A stretch of DNA of 64,000 bases from Devosia nitrariae (GTDB taxonomy: Bacteria; Pseudomonadota; Alphaproteobacteria; Rhizobiales; Devosiaceae): assembly GCF_030160115.1 (NCBI RefSeq), contig NZ_BSNS01000007.1, forward strand, positions 297,501-361,500, written 5' to 3'. The notes under the pieces were generated by a model. That model was given only the letters and a program-made list of their open reading frames with translations, had not been told where the DNA came from and searched no databases. Both the position numbers and the translations under genes were made by a program. Of this stretch, positions 11,126-62,100 are shown one piece after another (within the stretch, counting starts at the first letter, position 1; each line of letters begins with the position of its first letter).

Positions 11126-11641
11126 CTATTCGACTTCTTCAGCCCGATGCCGGGCCGACCACATGTACCAGCCGAGCACCGCACCGAAGAAGAAGGTGTG
11201 GGCGATGAACTGGATCATCGGGTTCGCCTCGGTGAACCAGGGGAACATCGTCGGCGCGATCACGTAGAAGTTGACCAGCCACAGTCCCAGACCATAGGCG
11301 CCGCCGACCGAGATATCGACGGCAGGCGATCTGAGGCCACCAAAGACCAGCGCGAACACCGCCCCATAGATGACGGCGAGCACCACATGGACGATGACCC
11401 CCGCGAGACCCACACCCAAGAGGTTATAGGTCGGCTCGAGCGCTGCCGGTCCCAAAGCAATGGCACCGATCATGCGCAGCGGCATAAAGAAGGCCTCCGG
11501 ACCCATCATCGCCGCGCTGGCGATCATCTCGAACGCGGCAAAGACGATGCCGGCAATAATGCCGCCGATCACGCCCTGGGTCAGTGCCCACGGGACTTCG
11601 GCGCGGGTGACGGGAACATGTGTTTCATGCAGAACAGCCAT
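11126..11641 (-). CDS. Small multi-pass membrane protein, unknown
   Basis: A 171-residue integral membrane protein with about four hydrophobic helices (roughly 20-45, 70-100, 105-130 and 145-165). The first is Gly/Ala rich (VIGGIIAGIVFAAFEMIASA). I do not recognise the family with certainty. A GGAAC-N16-CGTT element 42 bases upstream of the start suggests control by the general stress sigma factor EcfG. The Asn, Trp and Pro residues in the loops (NFYVIAPTMFPWF) are uncharged, giving no hint of a catalytic site. Confidence 0.72.
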   Translation of the reverse strand: MAVLHETHVPVTRAEVPWALTQGVIGGIIAGIVFAAFEMIASAAMMGPEAFFMPLRMIGAIALGPAALEPTYNLLGVGLAGVIVHVVLAVIYGAVFALVFGGLRSPAVDISVGGAYGLGLWLVNFYVIAPTMFPWFTEANPMIQFIAHTFFFGAVLGWYMWSARHRAEEVE

Positions 11642-11682: not shown

Positions 11683-11707
11683 AACGGAGAAGCGGACCGC
11701 CCGTTCC
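11683..11707 (-). promoter_or_regulatory. Candidate EcfG (general stress) promoter
   Basis: Minus strand GGAAC (11707-11703), 16 bases, CGTT (11686-11683). This equals the alphaproteobacterial EcfG/RpoE2/SigT consensus GGAAC-N16/17-CGTT. The -10 lies 42 bases before the start of the membrane protein gene at 11641. Confidence 0.62.
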
Positions 11708-19762: not shown

Positions 19763-19846
19763 GGGTCATCCCCGCGAAAGCGGGGACCTCCGTTTGGGCC
19801 TGCGCAAGAGCAACAGAGGTTCCCGCTTTCCGCGGGAATGACCCTG
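19763..19846. repeat. Palindromic repeat, family A, copy 1
   Basis: An inverted repeat of about 84 bases: GGGTCATCCCCGCGAAAGCG...GACCTCCGTT mirrored by ACAGAGGTTCCCGCTTTCCG...GAATGACCC. It lies between efp (+) and the convergent gene at 19881 (-). Each half also contains an inner hairpin (CCCCGCGAAAGCGGGG). Confidence 0.88.
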
Positions 19847-19880
19847 TGAATGGTTGGGAACAAGCGCAGGACTGCACCCC

Positions 19881-20255
19881 TCAATGCGTCTTCATCAGCG
19901 CCGATTTGGGCACGCTGAGCAACAACCGGTCGCCGTCCGCGCCCTCGATCTGGTCGGGCGTGATGTAGCGGTCGGCCGCGAACAGCCCCTCGGCATCGAG
20001 GCGCACGAACCCCTCGCGCAATAGTTTTTCCTTGAGCTCGTCCGATAGATTGTCCTCGCCGGCAAAGGCGCGGGCCATGATGGTGACGAGATCGTCGTCG
20101 CGATCGACATCCGTCGGATTGACGTCCGTCTGCTCGAGGCCTGGGGTCGACGGATCCTCATCGCTGAACTTGAAGTCCTCGACGACGCCAATCTCGTCAT
20201 TGGTGCTGTCGTAGACCTTCATGCCCTTGTGCAGGGTTTCTGGCAGGGTGTGCAT
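19881..20255 (-). CDS. PRC-barrel-like small acidic protein, unknown
   Basis: A 124-residue acidic soluble protein. The opening GMKVYDSTNDEIGVVEDFKFSDED resembles the first strands of a PRC-barrel (V.D..G..IG.V.D); the middle is Asp-rich (NPTDVDRDDDLVT) and the end YITPDQIEGADGDRLLLSVPKSAL resembles the barrel's final strand. PRC-barrel proteins are often stress-induced in Hyphomicrobiales. It starts with ATG after GAGGAGG and has an EcfG-like promoter upstream. A role in general stress is inference. Confidence 0.7.
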   Translation of the reverse strand: MHTLPETLHKGMKVYDSTNDEIGVVEDFKFSDEDPSTPGLEQTDVNPTDVDRDDDLVTIMARAFAGEDNLSDELKEKLLREGFVRLDAEGLFAADRYITPDQIEGADGDRLLLSVPKSALMKTH

Positions 20256-20308
20256 GGTTTACCTCCTCATTGCTTCGCGGCGGCCCTTGCGCCGCCCCGG
20301 CTGACTAA

Positions 20309-20336
20309 GGAACGGGAAACAGTCCCGCCGCGTTCC
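20309..20336. promoter_or_regulatory. Mirror-symmetric EcfG promoter elements (bidirectional)
   Basis: Plus strand: GGAAC 20309-20313, 17 bases, CGTT 20331-20334. Minus strand: GGAAC 20336-20332, 17 bases, CGTT 20314-20311. Both fit the EcfG consensus GGAAC-N16/17-CGTT. The block is bounded by GGAACG and CGTTCC, so one element can serve the divergent genes at 20255 (-) and 20405 (+). Confidence 0.62.
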
Positions 20337-20404
20337 CGTGAGCGCTGGCAAACGAGTGCCTGCCGGGTAAGATCGGCGCAATCGTTTCAAGGGAGTTTCA
20401 GCCA

Positions 20405-20905
20405 ATGCGCATCATCGCCCCGCTCGCCTTCGCCGGCCTCGCACTCTTTTCCGTCCCGGCCTTTGCCCAGGGCGATTTCGTTGCCCAGTTCAATGGCGCA
20501 TTTTCCGGCGGCGGGCAGGTGCGCACCGAGGCCGATGGCAACCCCTGGAACGTCGATTGCGACATGACCGGGCAGGCATCCGAGAGCGCCCTCTCCTTCG
20601 ACGGACGCTGCCGCACGGCGTTGATCTTTTCGCGCCGGGTCGGCGCCCAGATCCAGATCGACGGCAACGGGCGCTATACCGGCACCTATATCGGCTCGAC
20701 CATCGGTCCCGCCGCCCTTTCGGGCACCCGCTCGGGCAACACCGTGACCCTCGAGATCACCTGGCCGGAGGCGGTCAACGGCGACACCTCGGCCACCATG
20801 ACCATCACCGCAACCGGCAGCGGCTTCCACTTCGCCGTCGACGACCTCGACCAGCCCGGCGGCCAGACGGTGCGCATGACCGATATCCAGATGACGCGCC
20901 GGTAG
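20405..20905 (+). CDS. Secreted protein of unknown function
   Basis: 166 residues with a clear Sec signal peptide (MRIIAPLAFAGLALFSVPAFAQ, cleavage likely after AFA). The mature part is predicted to be all beta and rich in Gly, Thr and Ser. It has two Cys (NVDCDMTG and DGRCRTAL, about residues 52 and 68) that could form a disulfide in the periplasm. I do not recognise the family. It is preceded by AGGGAG and by an EcfG-type promoter shared with the divergent PRC-barrel-like gene, so a stress-related envelope role is possible but unproved. Confidence 0.75.
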   Translation: MRIIAPLAFAGLALFSVPAFAQGDFVAQFNGAFSGGGQVRTEADGNPWNVDCDMTGQASESALSFDGRCRTALIFSRRVGAQIQIDGNGRYTGTYIGSTIGPAALSGTRSGNTVTLEITWPEAVNGDTSATMTITATGSGFHFAVDDLDQPGGQTVRMTDIQMTRR

Positions 20906-37900: not shown

Positions 37901-37987
37901 CAGGGTCATCCTCGCGAAAGCGGAAACCTCCGTTTCCTTTACCGACGCTCTAAACAGAGGTCCTCACTTTCGCGAGGATGACCCTGT
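37901..37987. repeat. Palindromic repeat, family A, copy 2
   Basis: CAGGGTCATCCTCGCGAAAG...AACCTCCGTT mirrored by AACAGAGGTCCTCACTTTCG...GGATGACCCTG. It lies between the convergent NDUFAF5-like gene (+) and mutT (-). Confidence 0.88.
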
Positions 37988-41699: not shown

Positions 41700-41782
41700 G
41701 GGTCATTCCCGCGAAAGCGGGAACCTCCGTTTCCCATTGCCGCCATCGCCAACAGAGGTCCCCGCTTTCGCGGGGATGACCC
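41700..41782. repeat. Palindromic repeat, family A, copy 3
   Basis: GGGTCATTCCCGCGAAAGCG...GAACCTCCGTT mirrored by AACAGAGGTCCCCGCTTTCG...GGGATGACCC. It lies between convergent genes, as all other family-A copies do. Confidence 0.88.
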
Positions 41783-61096: not shown

Positions 61097-62100
61097 TGCA
61101 GGATCGGTGCCGGCGGCGCCTCGTTCATCTCGCTTGCGCCGCTCTCCTTATCCCCGCCGGTCTCGAGGCGGCCGAGGTTGCCGTGCAATCGCGCCAGCTC
61201 GAGCGGTTCGAGGGGGTTGCGGCCGGCGAGCAGATCGGCGGCCTCGTCTGGCGCGGCGGCATCGAGATGATAAGCCGCGACGACGCCTTCGGCGGCTTTT
61301 CCGGTATCGGCTTCGTCAGTCCCGCCCACCATCTCGTCATGGTCTCGGACCGCGGCAATTTTGTTTCCGGGCAGTTGATCTACGACGATGCCGGCCATCC
61401 GTTGGCGCTTATCGGCGTCGAGGTCGAGGCCATCCAGAACTCGCAGGGCGCCCCGCTGCCGCGCGCCTTCAGCCGCGACGCCGAGGCGCTCGACGTCATC
61501 TACCGCGATGGCCGTCCGGCGGCGCTCCGCGTCGGCTACGAGAACCTGACGCGCGTCGCCGACTTCGCCCTCTCCGGCAACCGGCCCGGCGGGCCGGCCC
61601 GCGAGATTCCCATTCCCGACTGGCTGGCCGGCACGCGCACCAATCAGTCGCTGGAATCGGTCTGCATTGCCCCGCCAGCTTCCCCCATCGCCGGGTCGAC
61701 GCTGCTGTTGACCGAAGGGGTGACGGACCGGAACGGTGACCATGTCGGCTGGTTCCTCGGCAACCGCGACAAAGGTCCAGTCACCTTCCGTGGCACGCTC
61801 GATCTCAGCCCCAGCGACTGCGCATTCCTGCCCAATGGCGACCTGCTGGTCCTCGAGCGCGGCACGGGCATGCTGAGCTTCACCATGGCCCTGCGGCGCG
61901 TTCCCGCCACTAAGGTGCGGCCCGATACGCTGATGGAAGGCGAGGTGCTGTTGAGCGCTGCGGGCAGTGGCATCGACAACATGGAAGGGATCGCCGTCCA
62001 CACCGCACCCGGCGGCGAAACCCGCATCACCCTCGTCTCCGACGACAATTTCAACGGCTGGCAGCGCAACCTGCTGCTGGAGTTCGCGCTGGCCCGATAG
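61096..62100 (+). CDS. Phytase-like esterase domain protein
   Basis: 334 residues with a signal peptide (hydrophobic 10-24, cleavage near LEAAE). The mature part is a beta-propeller of the 'esterase-like activity of phytase' family: GGIEMISRDDAFGGFSGIGF at the start, LVMVSDRGNFV, RDAEALDVIYRDG, ESVCIAPPASP and NMEGIAVHTAPGGETRITLVSDDNFNGWQRNLLLEF at the end. Gene order after cobT is common in the order. Substrate and phytase activity are unproved. Its ATG overlaps the cobT stop by one base. Confidence 0.9.
   Translation: MQDRCRRRLVHLACAALLIPAGLEAAEVAVQSRQLERFEGVAAGEQIGGLVWRGGIEMISRDDAFGGFSGIGFVSPAHHLVMVSDRGNFVSGQLIYDDAGHPLALIGVEVEAIQNSQGAPLPRAFSRDAEALDVIYRDGRPAALRVGYENLTRVADFALSGNRPGGPAREIPIPDWLAGTRTNQSLESVCIAPPASPIAGSTLLLTEGVTDRNGDHVGWFLGNRDKGPVTFRGTLDLSPSDCAFLPNGDLLVLERGTGMLSFTMALRRVPATKVRPDTLMEGEVLLSAAGSGIDNMEGIAVHTAPGGETRITLVSDDNFNGWQRNLLLEFALAR

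Follow-up and report, generated by a model that had tools for sequence, protein, structure and literature searches.

A 28-base block in the divergent gap between two small genes of Devosia nitrariae is a general-stress (EcfG) promoter that probably works in both directions. The gap is 149 bases long, flanked by a minus-strand gene of 124 aa and a plus-strand gene of 166 aa, and lies in the 64,000-nucleotide stretch of DNA analysed here (the window). The block reads GGAAC-N17-CGTT at 20309-20334 (+) and again at 20311-20336 (-), and the sequence-only reading, which had reported this motif on both strands of the same 28 bases, was confirmed, both matches being exact. The flanking open reading frames (19881-20255 and 20405-20905) were also as that reading had claimed, the second with a signal-peptide-like start. 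The coordinates of the features are listed in the table below.

EcfG-RNA polymerase bound one way would use the minus-strand GGAAC/CGTT pair and transcribe the 124-aa gene, referred to here as the PRC-like gene; in the opposite orientation, where the boxes swap roles, it would use the plus-strand pair and transcribe the gene of the exported, beta-rich 166-aa protein, referred to as the secreted-protein gene. The two binding modes would exclude each other because the same 28 bases are used. The PRC-ward promoter is well supported by conservation, while we infer that the mirror half is active, that it serves the secreted-protein gene and that the two modes exclude each other; the symmetry as such may be no more than chance. 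A chance origin of the symmetry in a one-way promoter, perhaps followed by its retention, is most likely, since the core of the EcfG -35 element (AACG) and that of the -10 element (CGTT) are reverse complements, which makes symmetry cheap.

Table. Features of the divergent gap and of the genes on either side of it
Feature	Position	Strand	Remark
Mirror-symmetric EcfG-type promoter block GGAACG-N16-CGTTCC	20309..20336	.	exact on both strands; 26/28 kept in D. geojensis
-35 element GGAAC, PRC-ward promoter	20332..20336	-	exact site in 18/23 other Devosia loci
-10 element CGTT, PRC-ward promoter	20311..20314	-	55 nt 5' of ATG
-35 element GGAAC, putative mirror promoter toward secreted-protein gene	20309..20313	+	exact match
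-10 element CGTT, putative mirror promoter	20331..20334	+	70 nt 5' of ATG
PRC-barrel-like / DUF2171-like protein, 124 aa	19881..20255	-	profiles; low-confidence model, weak Foldseek matches
Ribosome-binding-site-like AGGAGGT, PRC-like gene	20261..20267	-	read from sequence
Predicted exported all-beta protein, 166 aa	20405..20905	+	signal-peptide-like start; ten-strand low-confidence model
Ribosome-binding-site-like GGGAG, secreted-protein gene	20391..20395	+	read from sequence
Candidate separate promoter CTGGCA-N17-TAAGAT	20345..20373	+	8/12 to TTGACA/TATAAT, by eye

Profile searches of the same genome found nepR (PF18557, E 7.7e-14), phyR (NF006623, 385 bits versus a cut-off of 240) and an ECF sigma factor gene (NF009169, 358 bits versus a cut-off of 321) in one cluster. 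We read the last as ecfG on account of its overlap with the end of nepR, and an exact GGAAC-N17-CGTT was found 42 nt 5' of phyR. Therefore, the general stress machinery that reads the GGAAC/CGTT motif is present. Genome-wide, the bare motif showed no enrichment over the reversed control (109 sites, 50 + 59, versus 113, 62 + 51); it is the position of the sites and not their number that is informative. Among 30 sampled exact sites, which were the first of the 109 in contig order (C1-C7) with the mirror site counting as two, 26 were intergenic by our gene calls and 23 stood 5' of a gene start and pointed toward it, and the exact motif is a good promoter predictor in this genome. Within the window, GGAAC-N16/17-CGTT has four exact matches versus 0.84 expected from shuffles, and none of 100 shuffles reached four; two of the matches are the mirror block itself, and the one at 61732-61756 is coding by our gene calls. 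A further exact site, GGAAC-N16-CGTT at 11683-11707 (-), was observed 42 nt 5' of the gene for a predicted membrane protein of 171 aa (11126-11641, -), for which no Pfam match was found at E 0.01.

The name PRC-barrel-like, given by the sequence-only reading to the 124-aa protein, is weak by profile: the protein scores 18.4 bits for PF05239 (cut-off 21.2) and 14.1 for DUF2171 (cut-off 25), both below, and it is its D. pacifica ortholog that passes DUF2171 (26.3 bits versus 25). Foldseek with the structural model of the protein (pLDDT 64) gave no match at E 0.001, the best being 1pm3 (E 0.071), with the PRC-barrel 3htr at E 0.37. Relatives on 19 named contigs belonged to Devosia (16), an alphaproteobacterium (1) and Chloroflexi (2), and the nearest relative is that of D. 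geojensis, at 83%. A search of 121 genomes gave matches to the PRC-like gene in 23, all of them within the genus and ours among them, at 24 loci.

An exact GGAAC-N16/17-CGTT lies 25-77 nt 5' of the PRC-like gene at 18 of the 23 other Devosia loci. Two of the remaining five have TGAAC for GGAAC, one has an exact site at 220 nt, and two have none. At these promoters the spacers vary in sequence and in length (16 or 17) and the boxes are constant; all 19 exact near sites, own included, are oriented toward the PRC-like gene. The minus-strand site, clearly beyond chance with exact counterparts at 18/23 other loci, is established as the EcfG promoter of the PRC-like gene as far as sequence allows. 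PRC-barrel genes are also listed as EcfG/RpoE2 targets of Sphingomonas melonis and Sinorhizobium meliloti in the available parts of the literature (PMC7083833, PMC6599016, PMC6180224): the S. melonis target carries GGAAC-N17-GGTT 27 nt 5' of the gene, and the S. meliloti target of RpoE2 is SMb20522 (PMC7083833/PMC6599016/PMC6180224). With the machinery present, the motif predictive of promoters and the site of the PRC-like gene conserved, the earlier identification of the motif as an EcfG promoter stands.

The neighbourhood of the PRC-like gene differs between loci. At 13 of the 23 other Devosia loci (L035-L037, L041-L045, L049-L053) it is divergent from a gene that we read as outer-membrane-barrel-like, for which the one hint from profiles is that a relative matches PagP below threshold, and at three (L046-L048) it is directly divergent from ilvD. 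In our genome, D. geojensis and D. pacifica (L032-L034) it adjoins efp. A rearrangement is likely, because in these three efp stands there instead of the barrel-like gene or ilvD. The segment 19755-19855, where the ends of efp and the PRC-like gene converge, has a folding energy of -60.8 kcal/mol (z -6.7), and REP-like inverted repeats (TCATYCCCGCG..AAGCGGG.ACCTC; five matches with at most three mismatches) were observed at 19764-19848, 37906-37981 and 41703-41779.

Comparison with D. geojensis (taken to be G056) bears on both halves of the block. Within the block 26 of 28 positions are the same in the two genomes, compared with 67 of 121 elsewhere in the gap (P 1.7e-5). Both genes and both promoter halves are kept in D. 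geojensis, and among the 121 genomes searched these are the only two that have the secreted-protein gene beside the site. The spacer itself (20315-20330) is kept at 14 of 16 positions (P 0.007), which is more than a plain EcfG promoter needs.

The mirror half requires a G after GGAAC and CC after CGTT, three extra bases in all. Among 21 promoters of the PRC-like gene, the G is present in 20 and the CC in four, namely our own and those of D. geojensis, G016 and G058; G121, outside the 21, also carries it. G016 and G058 have identical arms and differ at 7 of 16 spacer positions. A protein tree with 22 rows requires two changes to account for the mirror label of these four, a number that well-supported branches make unavoidable. 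Most simply, then, the mirror half before the PRC-like gene would have been gained twice; the alternative is an old mirror half with a larger number of losses. As its partner gene the mirror site has the secreted-protein gene in our genome and D. geojensis, and an outer-membrane-barrel-like gene in G016, G058 and G121. That a few base changes in a one-way promoter twice produced a two-way stress switch before the Devosia PRC-like gene, with different partners and with a single polymerase-sized site serving two genes in mutual exclusion, is quite possible, and we put it forward tentatively.

The secreted-protein gene was found in Devosia, among the 121 genomes searched, only in our own genome and D. 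geojensis. Profile searches with the 166-aa protein and its ortholog gave nothing above cut-off. Its structural model, built from a two-row alignment (best pLDDT 71, other models 42-53), has ten strands arranged in a nitrobindin-like barrel (match E 1.8e-3, TM 0.68); given this low confidence, the nitrobindin-like fold would be a lead only. Twelve matches to the protein were found in other families, one of which (L069) resembles an EPSP synthase fragment and is presumably a chance match. Eleven of the twelve have no EcfG-type site; the match in G094 has GGAAC-N17-GGTT 30 nt 5' of its likely start. The S. melonis promoter table includes GGTT -10 boxes, in the available parts of the sources (PMC7083833/PMC6599016/PMC6180224).

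The gap also contains a second conserved block nearer to the secreted-protein gene. Windows of 20 bases within 20356-20380 match D. geojensis at 16/20, with CGGGTAAGATCG common to both, and the alignment of the two gaps shows CTGGC and TAAGAT conserved. A sigma-70 consensus scan of the divergent gap gave nothing above threshold, CTGGCA-N17-TAAGAT included. In this second block the secreted-protein gene may have a promoter to itself, or the block may be a regulator site.

Full mirror sites were surveyed across the genus, and 27 were found in 75 Devosia genomes. They are promoter-like in position: 24 of the 27 are not coding versus 4 of 30 for the reversed control (p 6e-9), and 20 have a called gene start adjoining. 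They are not enriched in the genus, with 27 versus 108 for the reversed mirror pattern and 106, 93 and 118 for the one-way variants. Multiplying the one-way totals by the promoter-like fractions of the samples predicts about 47 (25-82) mirror sites with promoter-like placement; 1.4% of simulations gave 20 or fewer and 4.1% gave 24 or fewer, the kinship of the genomes being uncorrected in these figures. On these figures the genus shows no general preference for symmetry and perhaps a mild avoidance of it.

All 27 mirror sites were used, and each one-way or reversed pattern was sampled at 30 sites. A gene start is faced by 24 of 30 GGAACG..CGTTGG sites (17 of these between divergent genes), by 15 of 30 GGAACC..CGTTCC sites (7 divergent) and by 21 of 30 GGAACC..CGTTGG sites (12 divergent). 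Mirror sites were considered as markers of divergent pairs and rejected as such, as the one-way GG sites lie between divergent genes just as frequently: 14/22 mirror versus 17/24 GG sites (p 0.75), and p 0.62 versus the three one-way sets pooled. Some of these sites belong to the PRC-like gene's own promoters, five among the 27 mirror sites and two (L152, L159) among the 30 GG sites, and without them the figures are 9/17 versus 16/23 (p 0.34). The gene calls come from our own codon model and are fallible, L152, called coding, being the PRC-like promoter of G032 (L053). The 0/30 divergent sites of the reversed control were rejected as a contrast, being explained by 26 of those 30 sites being coding. 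In the GGAACC-N15/16-CGTTCC sample, 15 of 30 sites are coding, and eight of these (L178, L181, L184, L185, L192, L193, L198, L204) begin GGAACCGACG and have similar spacers; one conserved gene family may carry this pattern within its coding sequence.

The sequence-only reading had one symmetric site driving both genes. For the PRC-like gene this was well supported; for the secreted-protein gene it is plausible, the mirror half being kept in D. geojensis, and the symmetry was not found in excess. The block may instead be a one-way EcfG promoter of the PRC-like gene, with an accidental mirror half and with the secreted-protein gene served by a promoter of its own, perhaps at 20345-20373, an explanation that we regard as possible though rather doubtful. 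It agrees with the fact that only three bases make the symmetry, the G already being present in 20/21 promoters of the PRC-like gene, and with mirror sites being neither in excess nor commoner at divergent pairs. The second conserved block, which matches D. geojensis at 16/20, and the 11 of 12 other-family matches of the secreted protein without EcfG-type sites point the same way. However, the mirror boxes and their spacing are perfect consensus and were kept in D. geojensis despite 54 changes in 121 flanking positions, and the sigma-70-like match is just 8/12, below the scan threshold. We know of nothing that would prevent EcfG from using the mirror boxes.

A palindromic operator for a DNA-binding regulator, in place of a sigma-factor site, is very unlikely. 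The 6-bp arms do have dyad symmetry, and the conserved spacer (14/16 with D. geojensis) would suit such a reading, but across the PRC-like promoters the boxes are constant, the spacer varies in sequence and length and the mirror CC is absent in 17/21, which fits a sigma-factor promoter, and every one of the 19 exact near sites faces the PRC-like gene. A chance occurrence without function, to which the genome total of the exact motif, no higher than that of the reversed control, might point, is hardly credible, being contradicted by the exact site at 18/23 other loci and by the 23/30 sampled sites that face a gene. A promoter read in both directions remains our preferred explanation of the block.

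In its GGAAC -35 and CGTT -10 elements, its 16-17 nt spacing, its short distance to the start codon and a PRC-barrel gene among the targets, the site resembles the alphaproteobacterial EcfG/RpoE2 (ECF15) promoters, and the available parts of that literature do not describe one site read on two strands (PMC7083833, PMC6599016, PMC6180224). In the part available on Sphingopyxis, the AAC of the EcfG -35 element is nearly invariant and the -10 element flexible (PMC7083833), and therefore partial mirror sites would be usable too. The block also resembles the bidirectional promoters of E. coli and Salmonella, where, according to the available parts of the sources, pseudo-symmetric DNA is likewise bound by polymerase in either orientation, in a mutually exclusive manner; there the -10 elements are shared or overlapping and near-symmetric, with starts mostly 18 bp apart (PMC12825309, PMC10268837). 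The Devosia block differs from these in that the -35 element of one strand is the -10 element of the other, and the predicted starts would be about 36 bp apart; no -10 is shared among the EcfG boxes. As expected of a bidirectional promoter, the block lies between divergent genes. A near parallel is found in S. meliloti, where the promoters listed for SMa0139 and SMa_sRNA_10 in the available part of the source are, by eye, largely reverse complements, so that one stretch appears in the list for each strand; they lie near targets of RpoE6, an ECF sigma factor that belongs to ECF26 and not to EcfG (PMC6180224). Among the open-licence PMC papers listed, no description of a two-way EcfG promoter was found.

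These data place two unnamed Devosia genes in the general stress response, the PRC-like gene firmly and the secreted-protein gene tentatively; it is solely the promoter that suggests a stress role for the two proteins. Because its -35 and -10 cores are reverse complements, the EcfG consensus is inherently pseudo-symmetric and almost identical to its mirror image. If the mirror half is active, a few base changes could recruit neighbouring genes into the stress regulon, and they would do so through a role-swapped geometry unlike the shared -10 geometry of E. coli and Salmonella.
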